From Cupriavidus pauculus (GTDB lineage Bacteria > Pseudomonadota > Gammaproteobacteria > Burkholderiales > Burkholderiaceae), in contig NZ_BPUO01000008.1 of assembly GCF_022179805.1 (NCBI RefSeq), positions 124,001-188,000 of the forward strand: DNA of 64,000 bases, given 5' to 3'. Position numbers and translations under genes: made by a program. The notes under the pieces were generated by a model. It was not told the DNA's origin. It worked only from the letters and a program-made list of their open reading frames with translations, and did not search any database. Below, in pieces: positions 49,422 to 55,127 of this stretch (position 1 is the stretch's first letter; each line of letters starts with the position of its first letter).

Positions 49422-50191
49422 TGGCCCAGCGCCGCTTGCGCGCGCTGCAGCCATTCGCGATTGTGCTCGCGGGCATGACGCGGCCAGTGGCGCGCGTCAT
49501 GAACGATTTCGGAATACAACGACTTCGCACGTTCCTTGTCTGCGGCGTCGGGCTGTTTCACCAGCCAGTCGGCAAACAGGCAGCGCGCGGCCACATCGCT
49601 GGCATTGGTCAGCGCACGCTCGAACGCGTCGCGCGTGCCCGGCGCACCGAGTGCCGCCAGGGTACGGGCGTACAGCAGCGACGGACCGGACTGGTCGCGC
49701 GCACGCGGATTCCCCGCGAACAGCTTCTCCAGCGTGGCCTGGGCCTCGGCATGGCGCCCCGTGGCCAGTTGCGCACGTGCCATGCCTTCCAGCAACGCCG
49801 GGTCGGAGGCAAACGGGCCATTGGCGGCGGCCTCGTAGTGTTCCAGCGCCTCGGCCGCGTTGCCAGTGTCCAGCAGCGCGGCGCCCAGGCGCATGCGGTG
49901 ATCGACAGTGGGCGCGCGGTCGAATGCCTGGCGCGCCTCGCGCACCGCGCGATGCGGATCGACCATCTGGTTGATGGCCCGCTTGGCTACCTGCGCGCCG
50001 CGCGTCTGGCGCAGGCCCGGCAGGTAGATGGCAAAGAAATAGACGATGCTGCCGAGCCCCGGGAAGAGGAACAGCAACAGCAGCCAGTACATGTTCTGGT
50101 GGGTGCGCACGGCGTGCACGGCGAAGAAGATCGCCACGATGACGTGCAGGCCGATACCGCCAATACCGCCGAGACCAAGGGAGGACAACAT
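49418..50191 (-). CDS. Membrane protein with PLDc_N-like segment and TPR repeats
   Basis: A 257-residue protein. Two N-terminal membrane spans (about 5-25 and 33-57, with NMYWLLLLFLFPGLGSIVYFFAIYL) resemble the short phospholipase-D N-terminal (PLDc_N) membrane module. They are followed by a soluble region of TPR-like helical pairs (about 85-255, for example LGAALLDTGNAAEALEHYEAA and GMARAQLATGRHAEAQATLEKL). It overlaps the spermidine-synthase-like gene by four bases, which suggests a two-gene operon. Probably a scaffold protein; no partner is evident. Confidence 0.72.
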   Translation of the reverse strand: MLSSLGLGGIGGIGLHVIVAIFFAVHAVRTHQNMYWLLLLFLFPGLGSIVYFFAIYLPGLRQTRGAQVAKRAINQMVDPHRAVREARQAFDRAPTVDHRMRLGAALLDTGNAAEALEHYEAAANGPFASDPALLEGMARAQLATGRHAEAQATLEKLFAGNPRARDQSGPSLLYARTLAALGAPGTRDAFERALTNASDVAARCLFADWLVKQPDAADKERAKSLYSEIVHDARHWPRHAREHNREWLQRAQAALGQ

Positions 50192-50336
50192 GGAATCCGT
50201 TTCCTGTGAGAGGCGCCCGAAAGCCGGACAGCCGCGATTGTGACAGAAGCCGGTAAGACCCCGTCCGTCACCCTAAAGTTTTAGCGTCAACCGTCCGTTG
50301 AAAGCTGTGGGCTCTCTCTTCGATCGGACTCCAACA

Positions 50337-50843
50337 ATGACATCCATCAGCAGCGTGACACCACAGGTCAGCCTGGCCAGTGACGCCACGATCACAAGCA
50401 CCCATCGCTACACCCGGCCCGCGGACGCCGCCACGGCCGACACCGCCGAAGGCCAGGCCACCGGCACCGGCACAGCCAGCGCGGCATCGTCCTCGTCGGC
50501 ACCCGCCAACGGCGGCGGCCGCATCGCCGGCCCCGGCGGCGCAGGCAAGGCAGCCGACACCGGCAGCACCGAAAGCAGCGAGGACAGCGAATCGGCCGTC
50601 ATCAAGGCCCTGAAGCAGCAGATCGAAGCGCTGCAGAAGCAACTGGCCGCCCAGATGGCCCAGTTGGCGTCCGCACAGGCCGCCCCGACCGACGAACTGA
50701 CCAAGTCCAGCACGGTCGGCACGCTGCAAGCCGGCGTGACTGCCACGCAGGCGGCACTGTCCCAAGCCATGGCTAAGCTGACAGAGGCGTACCAGGAAGC
50801 CACGGGCAGCGCCACGGGCAACATCGTCAATACCACGGCCTGA
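50337..50843 (+). CDS. FlxA-like coiled-coil protein
   Basis: A 168-residue protein of low-complexity Ala/Ser/Thr/Gly sequence (1-85) followed by a coiled coil (about 87-120, VIKALKQQIEALQKQLAAQMAQLA) and a Thr/Ala-rich tail. The coiled-coil core resembles FlxA-like proteins, but the match is short. There is no signal peptide. I prefer the ATG at 50337 (MTSISSVTPQ); an in-frame ATG at 50298 would add 13 residues. Function unknown. Confidence 0.6.
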   Translation: MTSISSVTPQVSLASDATITSTHRYTRPADAATADTAEGQATGTGTASAASSSSAPANGGGRIAGPGGAGKAADTGSTESSEDSESAVIKALKQQIEALQKQLAAQMAQLASAQAAPTDELTKSSTVGTLQAGVTATQAALSQAMAKLTEAYQEATGSATGNIVNTTA

Positions 50844-50985
50844 GCGGCCGCTTCCTTTCTCTCTTGAGACGCCCAGCGCATCCCGGGCCGGTGGCATGCC
50901 GGCTTGGGGTGCTCGCGCCAGGGCTGCAGAAAACCTCCGTAACCTCCTCCACCCTAAGCGGCCCCCGAGCCAGTTGTAACACCCC

Positions 50986-51014
50986 TTGATCTTCATTTAA
51001 CCAATGAGTTAAAT
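50986..51014 (+). promoter_or_regulatory. Promoter of the arsR-SRPBCC/GST operon
   Basis: -35 TTGATC (50986-50991), 17-bp spacer, -10 TTAAAT (51009-51014). The start point is expected at or next to the A of the ATG at 51021, so the mRNA should be leaderless or nearly so. Confidence 0.65.
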
Positions 51015-51015
51015 G
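50994..51015. promoter_or_regulatory. ArsR operator
   Basis: Perfect 8-bp inverted repeat CATTTAAC - 6 bp - GTTAAATG overlapping the spacer and -10 of the promoter, where an ArsR repressor would compete with polymerase. Confidence 0.75.
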
Positions 51016-51020
51016 AGCGC

Positions 51021-51386
51021 ATGCCCAATGCCGCCGATCCGCTTTCCACTGTTTTCGCCGCCCTGGCCGATCCCACGCGGCGCGCCATCCTGGCGCGTCT
51101 GTCCGAGGGCGAAGCGCCAGTCAGCGAGCTGGCTCGCCCGTTCGACATGTCTGCCCCCGCCATCTCCAAGCATCTTCGGGTGCTGGCCGACGCCGGGCTG
51201 ATCGAGCGCGAGGTCAATGCACGTTGGCGTATCTGCCATCTGCGGCCCGGTGCCCTGCGCGATGCGCATGGCTGGCTGGAAACCTACCGGCGGTACTGGG
51301 AAGACAACCTCGACAGGCTTGCGGCCTTTGTCGAGCAGGCGCATCCGGACACCATCGTCACATCGGACAAGGGGAACAAGTCATGA
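51021..51386 (+). CDS. ArsR-family transcriptional repressor
   Basis: A 121-residue winged-helix regulator. The DNA-binding part reads DPTRRAILARLSEGEAPVSELARPFDMSAPAISKHLRVLADAGLIEREV (about 16-65). The metal-binding CxC of classical ArsR/SmtB proteins is absent and it contains no Cys pair, so it belongs to the subgroup usually paired with SRPBCC/AHSA1 proteins, where an organic ligand is likely. Its TGA overlaps the ATG of the next gene (ATGA). The start follows the promoter by only six bases. Confidence 0.92.
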   Translation: MPNAADPLSTVFAALADPTRRAILARLSEGEAPVSELARPFDMSAPAISKHLRVLADAGLIEREVNARWRICHLRPGALRDAHGWLETYRRYWEDNLDRLAAFVEQAHPDTIVTSDKGNKS

Positions 51387-52468
51387 GCGAAGCGGCTACC
51401 TTTCAGCTGGAACTGACCCGCCAGATTCGTGCGCCGCGCGAGCGGGTTTTCGATGCCTTTACCAACGAGTCGGCGCTGGCCGTCTGGCACTGCCCGCGCG
51501 GCATGAAGGTGCTGGAAGCGCGTGCCGATGCACGCGTGGGCGGCAAGTACCGGATCGCGGTTGGCGCGAGCGATGGCGAGCAACACATCGTCGGCGGCGA
51601 GTACCAGCGGATCGACCGTGCCGACTTCCTGGCCTACACGTGGCAATGGGAAGGCGGCGCGGAACTGCCCGCCGGACTACGCACGCTGATCGAAGTCACG
51701 CTGACCGACAAGGACGGCGGCACTCATCTCCACATGCGGCACAGCGGATTCCCGGACGCCGCGATCCGCGATTCGCACGACAGTGGCTGGCAATCCGTCT
51801 TCAACAACCTGAGCGACTACCTGGACCCCGAAGGCAGCGCGGGCACGCTGACGGTCTATGGCGATGGCCGCAGCACCTACGTCCGTACGGTTCGCCTGGC
51901 GCTGGAGGAAAAGGGGCTGCGCTACACGCTCAAGCCGCTGACACCACGCGACGACGAACTGCTCGCGCACAATCCGTTCGGACGCATTCCAGCATTCACC
52001 GACGGTCCGATCGAGTTCTACGAAACGCGCGCCATCCTGAGCTATCTCAATGACGTCTTCGGTGGCACCAACCTGATTCCGCAGACCGGCCCCACCGCCC
52101 GCGCACGCAACGAGCAGTGGATCAGCCTGATCAACTGCCACGCCTACGACACGATGGTGCGCCGCTACGTGCTGCAGTACGTGTTTCCAAAGGGAGAGAA
52201 CGGCCAGCCCGACCGCCAGACCATCGAGGCGGCCGTGCCTGAAATGGCCAAACAGCTAGACGCGCTGGAGCAGGCGTACGGTGGCCGCGATTTCCTGGTA
52301 GGTAATGCGCTGTCGATGGCGGATCTGTTTCTCGCTCCGATCGTCGAATACCTGGGGATGTTCCCCGAGAGCCAGGCGCTGCTGGAAACGCGGCCGAACA
52401 TCCGACGCGGCCATGCGGTCATGCGTGCGCGGCCTAGCTATGCGGCGACACAGCCGAAGCTCGACTGA
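51383..52468 (+). CDS. SRPBCC (AHSA1)-glutathione S-transferase fusion protein
   Basis: A 361-residue two-domain protein. Residues 1-150 are an AHSA1-type SRPBCC ligand-binding domain (TRQIRAPRERVFDAFTNESALAVWHCPRGM... GWQSVFNNLSDYLDP). Residues 155-355 are a complete GST: thioredoxin-like N-domain (LTVYGDGRSTYVRTVRLALEEKGLRYTL, cis-Pro in GRIPAF at 203, ETRAI glutathione-gamma-Glu site) and helical C-domain (GRDFLVGNALSMADLFLAPI). No stop or shift separates them. ArsR repressors are normally followed by a lone SRPBCC protein; here it is joined to a GST. A ligand-sensing or conjugating role in detoxification is inferred. Translation is coupled to arsR. Confidence 0.88.
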   Translation: MSEAATFQLELTRQIRAPRERVFDAFTNESALAVWHCPRGMKVLEARADARVGGKYRIAVGASDGEQHIVGGEYQRIDRADFLAYTWQWEGGAELPAGLRTLIEVTLTDKDGGTHLHMRHSGFPDAAIRDSHDSGWQSVFNNLSDYLDPEGSAGTLTVYGDGRSTYVRTVRLALEEKGLRYTLKPLTPRDDELLAHNPFGRIPAFTDGPIEFYETRAILSYLNDVFGGTNLIPQTGPTARARNEQWISLINCHAYDTMVRRYVLQYVFPKGENGQPDRQTIEAAVPEMAKQLDALEQAYGGRDFLVGNALSMADLFLAPIVEYLGMFPESQALLETRPNIRRGHAVMRARPSYAATQPKLD

Positions 52469-52489
52469 CCGGCGGCGTTGCTCGCCACG

Positions 52490-52996
52490 CTAATCTAACC
52501 ACGCGCGTAGCGCCTGCCACGCGATCAGCTTTTCTGCATACGCCAGCGTGTAGGCGGGGCTGCTTGATGGCAACTTGACGATGGCGTGTTGGGCACCGTG
52601 TTTGTCGCCGTGTTCGCCCAGCGCCCTTTCGCCGATCTTCGCCGCCGTGCCGCCGTTGAAGGCAATCGCCTTCAAGTTCGGCAGGGTGGCGATCAGGCCG
52701 AGCAGATCGTTGCCTTGATGGTCTTTGATGTTGCTGTCCAGGCTGCCGTCGCGGCGCGCTTCGGCCACGACGTCCCACAGGCCCACGTGGTGGTTGCGGA
52801 GGGCCTCCAGCCGCTGCGCGTAGGCGAGGCCGACGAGGTCGACGTCAAGTACGTCGCTCATCAAATGCCAGAAGCGGTTCTGCTTGTGCGCGTAATACTG
52901 CGATTGTGCGAGGGAGACTTCGCCCGGCAGGCTGCCGAGCACCAGCACGCGGGTGTGCTGGTCGACGACCGGGGGGAAGCAGCGTTTGGTGGTCAT
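52490..52996 (-). CDS. DNA-deoxyinosine (hypoxanthine-DNA) glycosylase
   Basis: A 168-residue member of the uracil-DNA glycosylase superfamily, family 6 (HDG type), which removes hypoxanthine arising from adenine deamination. Motif 1 reads LVLGSLPGEVSLAQSQYYAH (about 18-37) followed by KQNRFW, and the C-terminal motif is LPSSSPAYT (142-150). The length fits the family. It is convergent with the SRPBCC-GST gene and followed upstream by a REP-like palindrome. Confidence 0.9.
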   Translation of the reverse strand: MTTKRCFPPVVDQHTRVLVLGSLPGEVSLAQSQYYAHKQNRFWHLMSDVLDVDLVGLAYAQRLEALRNHHVGLWDVVAEARRDGSLDSNIKDHQGNDLLGLIATLPNLKAIAFNGGTAAKIGERALGEHGDKHGAQHAIVKLPSSSPAYTLAYAEKLIAWQALRAWLD

Positions 52997-53035
52997 CGGG
53001 TCGGGTTGGGATGTGGTGGGTAGTTGAGAGGCTGA

Positions 53036-53100
53036 CCCTCTCCCCCGCCCCTCTCCCGCTCGCGGGAGAGGGGAGCAAACCGAAGGCAGGGGTGAGGGCT
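53036..53100. repeat. REP-like palindrome (single unit)
   Basis: Palindrome CCCCTCTCCCGC TC GCGGGAGAGGGG at 53048-53073, with the outer edge GGGAGCAAACC seen in the other copies. It lies between htpG and the glycosylase gene, both on the minus strand, and may end the htpG transcript. Confidence 0.75.
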
Positions 53101-53122
53101 CTTCAAACCCCCACCCACACCA

Positions 53123-55024
53123 TCAGGCCAGCAGCCGGTTCACCCGCTGCACATAGGCAGCCGGATCTTCGAGCATGCCGCCCTCGGCCAGCAGGGCCTG
53201 GTCGAACAGTACGCGTACGCGGTCGTTGAAGCTGTCGCCTTCGGGCATGTCGCGCAGCTTCTTCACCAGCGCGTGCTCGGGGTTCAGTTCCAGGATCGGC
53301 TGGGCGTCGGGGGCTTTCTGGCCGGCCTGCTTCAGCAGGCGTTGCAGGTAGCCGCTCATGTCGCCGTCGTCCGACACCAGGCACGATGCCGAATCGGTCA
53401 GGCGCAGCGTTACGCGCACGTCCTTGGCCTGGCCTTCCAGCACGGTCTTGGCGCGTTCCACCACGTCCTTCCATTCGGTGGTCGCCTTCTCCTGCTCGGC
53501 CTTTTCGGTTTCGTCGGCCAGTGCGCCCAGGTCCAGGTCGCCACGCGCCACGGACACCAGTTCCTTGCCGTCGAAATCGCGCAGATGCGACAGCATCCAT
53601 TCGTCGACGCGGTCAGTCAGCAGCACGACCTCGATGCCCTTCTTGCGGAAGACTTCCAGGTGCGGGCTCGACTTGGCAGCGGTCCAGGTGTCAGCCGTGA
53701 CGTAGTAGATCTTGTCCTGGCCTTCCTTCATGCGGCCCACGTACTCGGCCAGCCCCACCGACTGCTCGGCCGTGTCGCCTTGCGTGGTGGCAAAGCGCAG
53801 GAGCTTGGCAATGCGCTCGGCGTTGGCGTGGTCCTCGCCGGTGCCTTCCTTCAGCAGTTGGCCGAACTGTTCCCAGAACGTCTTGTACTTGGCGCGTTCG
53901 GCTTCGTCCTCGCTATCGGCCAGCGATTCCAGCATCGACAGCACGCGCTTGGTGCAGCCTTCGCGGATGGCCTTCACGTCGCGGCTTTCTTGCAGCAGTT
54001 CGCGCGATACGTTCAGCGGCAGGTCTGCCGAATCCACCACGCCCTTGACCCAGCGCAGGTACGACGGCAGCAGTTGGTCGGCGTCGTCCATGATGAACAC
54101 GCGCTTCACGTACAGCTTCAGGCCGGCCTTGTGATTGCGGTCCCACAGGTCGAACGGTGCGCGGGCCGGGATGTACAGCAGCTGCGTGTATTCGCTGCGG
54201 CCTTCCACGCGGTTGTGCGTCCAGGCCAGCGGCGCATCGTGATCGTGGGCGATGTGCTGGTAGAACGCCTGGTACTGCTCGTCCGTAATGTCGGACTTGC
54301 TGCGCGTCCAGAGCGCGCTGGCCTGGTTCACGCTCTCCCATTCGCCGGTCTGCTTCTGCTGCTGCGTCTCGGCATCCCATTCCTCCTTGGGCATGCGGAT
54401 CGGCAGCGAGATGTGGTCCGAGTACTTGCGGATGATGTGTTGCAGGCGGTACGACGACAGGAAATCGTCTTCGCCTTCGCGCAGGTGCAACGTGATCGTG
54501 GTGCCACGCTCGGCACGGTCGATTGCGTCGATCGTAAATTCGCCATCGCCGGCGCTTTCCCAGCGCACCGCTTCGCTGGCAGGCAGGCCGGCGCGACGGG
54601 TTTCCACGCTGACCTTGTCGGCCACGATGAAGGCCGAATAGAAGCCCACGCCGAACTGGCCGATCAGCGCCGCGTCCTTCTGCTGGTCGCCGGACAGTTG
54701 CTGGAAGAATTCCTTGGTACCCGACCGGGCGATGGTGCCCAGGTTGCGGATCGCCTCGTCGCGGCTCATGCCGATGCCGTTGTCGGTGATCTTCAGCAGG
54801 CGGGCGGCGGGGTCCACTTCAATGCGGATGGCCAGGTCGGCATCGTTTTCGAGCAGGGCCGGATTCGCGATGGCCTCGAAGCGTAGCTTGTCGGTGGCGT
54901 CCGAAGCGTTCGATACCAGCTCACGCAGGAAGATTTCCTTATTGCTGTACAGCGAGTGGATCATCAGGTGCAGCAACTGCTTCACTTCCGCCTGGAAGCT
55001 CATCGTCTCGTGCGGTGCGGTCAT
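53123..55024 (-). CDS. htpG: Molecular chaperone HtpG (Hsp90)
   Basis: A 633-residue bacterial Hsp90. The N-terminal ATPase (GHKL) motifs are [42 protein letters not shown] and [15 protein letters not shown]; the middle and C-terminal dimerisation domains are full length. The start at 55024 ([18 protein letters not shown]) has AGGAG nine bases upstream; further in-frame sequence before it is untranslated leader. A sigma-32-type heat-shock promoter lies about 75 bp upstream. Confidence 0.96.
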
Positions 55025-55098
55025 GGTTCTCCTCTTGAATGGAAACGTTGCGCAAAGGTGCCCTGCCCCTGGTGTCCGGAGCGGGTCGTTGGCGCAGG

Positions 55099-55127
55099 AA
55101 ATAGGGTCGGCGGGCGGCTTTTTCAAG
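55099..55127 (-). promoter_or_regulatory. Sigma-32 heat-shock promoter of htpG
   Basis: On the minus strand: -35 CTTGAAA (55127-55121, perfect), 14-bp spacer, -10 CCCTATTT (55106-55099, one mismatch to CCCCATNT). This places the start about 70 nt before the htpG ATG. Confidence 0.85.

Follow-up and report, generated by a model that had tools for sequence, protein, structure and literature searches.

The pairing of an ArsR-family regulator with an AHSA1 protein has been described in Frankia, where the two genes occur together in potential operons and where a direct link between them had reportedly not been elucidated (PMC4531530). The same pairing is found in the DNA analyzed here, a stretch of 64,000 nucleotides from Cupriavidus pauculus that will be referred to as the window, but here the AHSA1 domain is covalently joined to a glutathione S-transferase (GST). 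The best matches of the GST half by sequence, Foldseek, and VIA-align are plant phi-class GSTs (1aw9, 5f06, and 1gnw), with a serine aligned but with an identity of only about 24–31% over the GST half. The fusion protein differs from these enzymes in being bacterial and in having an extra N-terminal SRPBCC domain; phi-like GSTs have been noted in bacteria as well (PMC6540824).

The fold of the SRPBCC half was assigned from sequence alone, by means of Pfam and of sequence matches to solved chains. It falls in the same family as the stand-alone AHSA1-like proteins 1z94, which is the closest solved chain (E 5e-16), and 2lak, and it matches CalC (1zxf) only at an E-value of 0.009. Unlike the fusion, the matched chains of 1z94, 2lak, and 1zxf (147, 160, and 155 aa, respectively) are without a GST half. 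No solved sequence that spans both halves was found among the 60 listed of 200 matches, and no title or abstract start among the literature matches listed for ArsR, SRPBCC/AHSA1, and GST describes the fusion.

Organization of the Gene Pair

The features of the locus are as follows.

50993–51016, no strand: candidate operator, inverted repeat TCATTTAAC-N6-GTTAAATGA, directly 5' of arsR, at a conserved position
51021–51386, + strand: gene for an ArsR-family winged-helix regulator, 121 aa (Pfam)
51383–52468, + strand: gene for the SRPBCC-GST fusion protein, 361 aa, one open frame (Pfam)
51428–51823, + strand: AHSA1/SRPBCC domain, residues 16–147 (Pfam, 93.9 bits)
51488–51493, + strand: His36-Cys37, typical of the fused family (33 of 33 fused rows)
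51857–52066, + strand: GST N-terminal (thioredoxin-like) domain, residues 159–228 (GST_N_3, 46.4 bits)
51872–51874, + strand: Ser164, aligned with the serine of plant phi GSTs (33 of 33 fused rows)
52022–52027, + strand: Glu214-Thr215 (33 of 33 fused rows)
52184–52432, + strand: GST C-terminal helical domain, residues 268–350 (GST_C, 42.9 bits)

The initial annotation had described an arsR gene that overlaps, through ATGA, an uninterrupted frame for an AHSA1/SRPBCC domain and a full GST, and both statements were found to be correct. The fusion frame is free of stop codons through position 52468, and its start codon at 51383 places the ATGA overlap at 51383–51386. The AHSA1 match (PF08327) is far above its cut-off of 22.1 bits, and the two GST matches are also above theirs. 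Six of the 38 fused loci (L049, L050, L053, L054, L061, and L072) have ATGG at the junction in place of ATGA. Full-length homologues at 57–90% identity exclude both chance and sequencing error as the origin of the frame.

The earlier description began at position 51021 and thus omitted the candidate operator at 50993–51016. A promoter scan of positions 50850–52560 returned no promoter-like site; two terminator-like sites were found in the same region, both within the coding region, with a mean of 1.2 in shuffled sequences. No Rfam match at gathering scores was obtained over positions 50000–53500, and one pattern scan of viral contigs gave no matching stretch.

We propose, with a probability of roughly 0.6, that the locus encodes an autorepressed, ligand-inducible cassette for detoxification by glutathione conjugation, whose fusion has a single origin from an unfused cluster. 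The small gene pair of this soil bacterium is probably self-regulated: ArsR dimers would occupy the palindrome and shut off both genes until repression is relieved by a small organic compound, probably electrophilic and lipophilic rather than a metal. The product would be a GST dimer bearing two SRPBCC pockets. The GST half would then use glutathione to conjugate or reduce the compound by a serine mechanism of the phi type. The SRPBCC half may raise the local concentration of the compound or present it to the GST, a putative hand-off that is plausible. A link between part of the family and glutathione-dependent chemistry would follow from the GST fusion, whose active-site residues are conserved, and from the unfused clusters with their different GST lineages. 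A search for the ligand could start from a single protein that can be purified, a single operator, and a single regulator.

Joining of the SRPBCC and GST Domains

The structure of the joined protein was predicted with AlphaFold2 from 33 fused sequences (pLDDT 86.8, pTM 0.84). The last helix of the SRPBCC domain (126–147) and a short helix (149–154) run straight into the GST strand at 156–159, so that the predicted model is without a flexible linker between the two halves.

A possible but somewhat unlikely alternative is that the fusion merely couples expression and stoichiometry, with the two domains acting independently and without a hand-off. The absence of a flexible linker from the predicted model (pTM 0.84) appears to speak against this explanation, as do residues such as C37 and E104 that are common to the fused SRPBCC rows and rare at the same columns in the unfused rows; cysteine occupies the Cys37 column in 33 of 33 fused rows versus 2 of 32 unfused SRPBCC rows. 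It is favored by unfused clusters in which the three genes overlap or lie close together, an arrangement indicating that co-expression suffices elsewhere, and by other ArsR-SRPBCC pairs that are followed by a different gene, such as one for DUF899.

Unfused arsR-SRPBCC-GST clusters were identified at L074, L145, L147, L148, L149, L150, L167, L172, and L175; only part of a GST frame is present at L073. The GST was confirmed by Pfam in L074, L145, L147, L150, and L226 (the same place as L167), and in the remaining clusters it was assigned from profile matches and tree placement. The gaps between the SRPBCC and GST genes were determined to be −8 to 56 nt in L074, L145, L147, L148, L149, L167, L172, and L175. 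The three parts and their order are common to the window and to L074, L150, and L167, and L150 also shares the operator type. L074, on a plasmid of Rhizobium leguminosarum, is annotated as three genes, whereas the window has the fused form.

Many of the cluster loci were found via matches to both domains and are thus unusable for a rate. The frequency of a GST neighbor was obtained from a survey ranked by similarity to the SRPBCC domain and not to the GST, covering 329 genomes, of which 63 gave a match; with one locus per genome, 28 unfused loci were examined, all of them relatives of the fused domain. An ArsR gene adjoins the SRPBCC gene in 13 of the 28, 12 recognized by script and L225 by hand (its ArsR was recognized in L171, a locus that overlaps it), in agreement with the earlier view that ArsR-SRPBCC pairs are common. 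The next gene of these 13 pairs encodes a GST in three cases (L220, L226, and L230), where L220 is the same place as L175 and its GST was judged by the GST profile, and DUF899 in four (L222, L225, L229, and L235). The 13 genomes contain 213 GST_N_3 matches in 64.3 Mb, a count that may be too low for GSTs as a whole. If a density of 1 gene per kb is assumed, at least three GST next genes would arise by chance with a probability of 1e-5 (n = 13) or 1.1e-4 (n = 28).

The order of ArsR-SRPBCC pair and then DUF899 gene was seen at L091, L095, L222, L225, L229, and L235, and L095 has a GST match further downstream in addition to DUF899. At L238:1480–2253 (− strand, genome G830), an ArsR-type helix-turn-helix and an AHSA1 domain lie within one frame of 258 aa; joins of both kinds, ArsR to SRPBCC and SRPBCC to GST, therefore exist.

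A more specific version of the hand-off can be formulated as a relay enzyme. The SRPBCC pocket with His36-Cys37 would capture a hydrophobic electrophile, perhaps covalently, and deliver it across the rigid junction for glutathionylation by the serine GST, with the upstream ArsR sensing the same compound. We consider the complete relay to be improbable. If true, it would connect part of the wider family of ArsR-SRPBCC operons with glutathione chemistry, and it would, to our knowledge, be the first carrier-to-GST channel within one chain.

Origin of the Fusion

Both domain trees place the 33 fused rows in a single clade (100/98 for the GST and 98/96 for the SRPBCC domain). The fusion thus seems to have arisen once, a reading that both trees support. 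By the proposed scheme, it would have derived from an arsR-SRPBCC-GST cluster like those still unfused in other proteobacteria. The row that adjoins the fused clade in the GST tree is L167 (95/91), which comes from such an unfused cluster and has a long branch. The GSTs of 8 of the 10 unfused cluster rows fall in a clade other than that of the fused GSTs; these eight group together (98/89) and are partial profile matches, and L167 and L150 are placed elsewhere. In eight unfused clusters, the GST profile matches leave the catalytic region uncovered. The GSTs of the unfused clusters belong to more than one lineage. In the SRPBCC tree, L146 is the unfused row closest to the fused clade, and its locus is without a GST match; L167 and L150 group elsewhere in this tree. 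The operon origin consequently rests on the GST tree.

The GST Half

The glutathione site of cytosolic GSTs includes a cis-proline and a Glu-Ser/Thr pair. The GST half has both the N- and C-terminal GST domains, and Ser164, Pro203, Glu214, Thr215, and Asp314 are unchanged across all 33 fused rows; among these, Pro203, Glu214, and Thr215 fit the glutathione site of a cytosolic GST. The serine that aligns with Ser164 is presumably the catalytic residue of the plant phi GSTs, and we take Glu214-Thr215 to be the glutathione-binding pair. When residues 151–361 were compared by VIA-align with plant phi GSTs, Z-scores of up to 25.3 were obtained (2.3 Å over 202 residues).

It could also be argued that the SRPBCC domain is the working part and that the GST half is a non-catalytic dimerization or protein-binding module, such as SspA or FzlA. 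The structure of FzlA (5nr1) ranks high among the structural matches, at a Z-score of 24.5, and weak sequence matches were obtained to FzlA (55.3 bits) and SspA (42.6 bits). These scores are far below the curated NCBIfam cut-offs of 300 and 314, and the protein likewise falls short of the MaiA equivalog (58.6 bits, cut-off 171.05). Since the serine and the glutathione-site residues are also invariant, we regard a non-catalytic GST half as very unlikely.

The ArsR Regulator and Its Candidate Operator

The regulator has the winged helix-turn-helix of the ArsR/SmtB family (HTH_20, 60.7 bits; HTH_5, 52.3 bits; each above the cut-off). Its gene is immediately 5' of the fusion gene in 37 of the 38 fused loci; the exception is L040, for which merely 131 bases are available before the fusion gene.

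The inverted repeat at 50993–51016 is perfect, with 9-bp arms and a 6-bp spacer. Of 2000 stretches of 140 nt drawn at random from the window, 100 contain arms of at least 9 bp, and the case for an operator therefore comes from the conserved position of the repeat, as the arm length by itself is not rare. A core of the TTAAC-N-GTTAA type is located 24 nt 5' of the arsR start, as modelled from the ArsR of the window, in all 37 fused loci in which ArsR was found; the background was 184 of 20000 random 100-nt stretches of the collected loci. The pattern TTTAAC-N6-GTTAAA matches one place in the whole 6.8-Mb genome (0 for the reversed control), and by that pattern the regulator is local. Among the 27 unfused ArsR-SRPBCC loci, only 10 were found to have the operator core upstream, and of the 10 loci grouped as GST clusters only L150 has it, a distribution that weighs against the proposed cassette.

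Metal-sensing members of the ArsR/SmtB family are marked by a cysteine pair or by an alpha5 metal site of the form D-x-H...H-x-x-E. Cys72 is the sole cysteine of the regulator, so that it has no metal-binding cysteine pair, as had been noted initially. In alpha5, D81-x-H83 is present without a second ligand pair, and E94 and L97 stand at the positions expected for His and Glu. The operator and the lack of the usual metal ligands fit the sensing of something other than a metal. Resistance to metals or arsenic under a metal-sensing ArsR would agree with the NCBIfam match to the 'metalloregulator ArsR/SmtB family' (88.8 bits, cut-off 55), but these missing ligands argue against it, as do the two neighbors that were scanned by Pfam, a UDG-superfamily gene and a TPR-like gene, and we find this explanation highly improbable. 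The two neighbors offer no pathway clue.

In Cupriavidus basilensis OR16 (L055:4735–5001), the ArsR match ends at residue 88 and the arsR frame is closed by a TAA stop codon sharing bases with the start of the fusion (TAATG); from the sequence, this ArsR seems to be without its C-terminal part. The genome of the window contains a second ArsR-like frame, identified from sequence, which overlaps a frame of 323 aa with two tandem AHSA1 domains (L003:1077–2397, G000:C29).

Distribution and Genomic Neighborhood

A full-length copy of the fusion was found in 12 of 24 same-genus genomes, own included, out of 40 genomes scanned. Leaving out the own genome, it is present in 11 of 23 and was not found in 12 of 23, and the fusion is thus dispensable. 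The nearest named relatives of the fusion gene are from Cupriavidus. Among contigs of named genomes, the 38 fused loci are from Cupriavidus, Ralstonia, Burkholderia, Pandoraea, Trinickia, Dyella, and Rhodanobacter, with one of the 38 labelled only as Burkholderiaceae bacterium.

With at most five candidates scored per genome, the fusion was found in 49 of 398 genomes of the family sample, in 1 of 369 genomes of the class sample (the own genome), and in 2 of 398 genomes of the phylum sample. Of the 49, 47 are full-length without a stop codon, one (G560) has a single TAG inside the match, and one (G769) is in two frames. A further 13 genomes of the family sample match by one domain only or with a stop codon between the domains. 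The SRPBCC-GST fusion is narrow in distribution, and to this extent the initial description of the GST partner as unusual holds; the unfused arsR-SRPBCC-GST clusters of other proteobacteria show that the partnership itself is less so. The copy of G769 (L069 and L152) is split over two frames within the GST part. Three plasmid records that cover at least 80% of the query have stop codons after the SRPBCC part and are therefore not fusions.

A sequencing error in the window would be expected to show as two separate genes at the same position in sister genomes. No such case was found, and wherever both flanks are visible there is either the fusion or nothing. In three cassette-free sister genomes (G009, G473, and G004; loci L191, L195, and L197), an empty site lies between the hypothetical gene upstream and the UDG gene downstream, and the arsR, SRPBCC, and GST profiles gave no match to these loci. 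These empty sites and the fused homologues together rule out a sequencing error. Of 30 UDG loci, 14 have the fused gene nearby, 3 have the empty site, and 13 have neither; the latter, whose 1.5-kb flanks contain no fusion and no upstream hypothetical gene, are uninformative on the site.

The UDG, htpG-like, and upstream genes remain where the cassette is absent. A role as an Hsp90 co-chaperone is scarcely credible: AHSA1 is named after an Hsp90 activator and an htpG-like frame, identified from sequence, lies 0.65 kb away on the opposite strand (53123–55126), but the htpG-like gene is still found with the UDG gene in the three cassette-free sister genomes, and among the 16 largest clusters of frames in the 5-kb flanks, the htpG-like cluster comprises 14 of the 38 fused loci, each labelled Cupriavidus or Ralstonia, and no locus from Burkholderia, Trinickia, Pandoraea, Dyella, or Rhodanobacter. 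The UDG-superfamily neighbor matches at several places, some of them partial, at L216 of genome G022.
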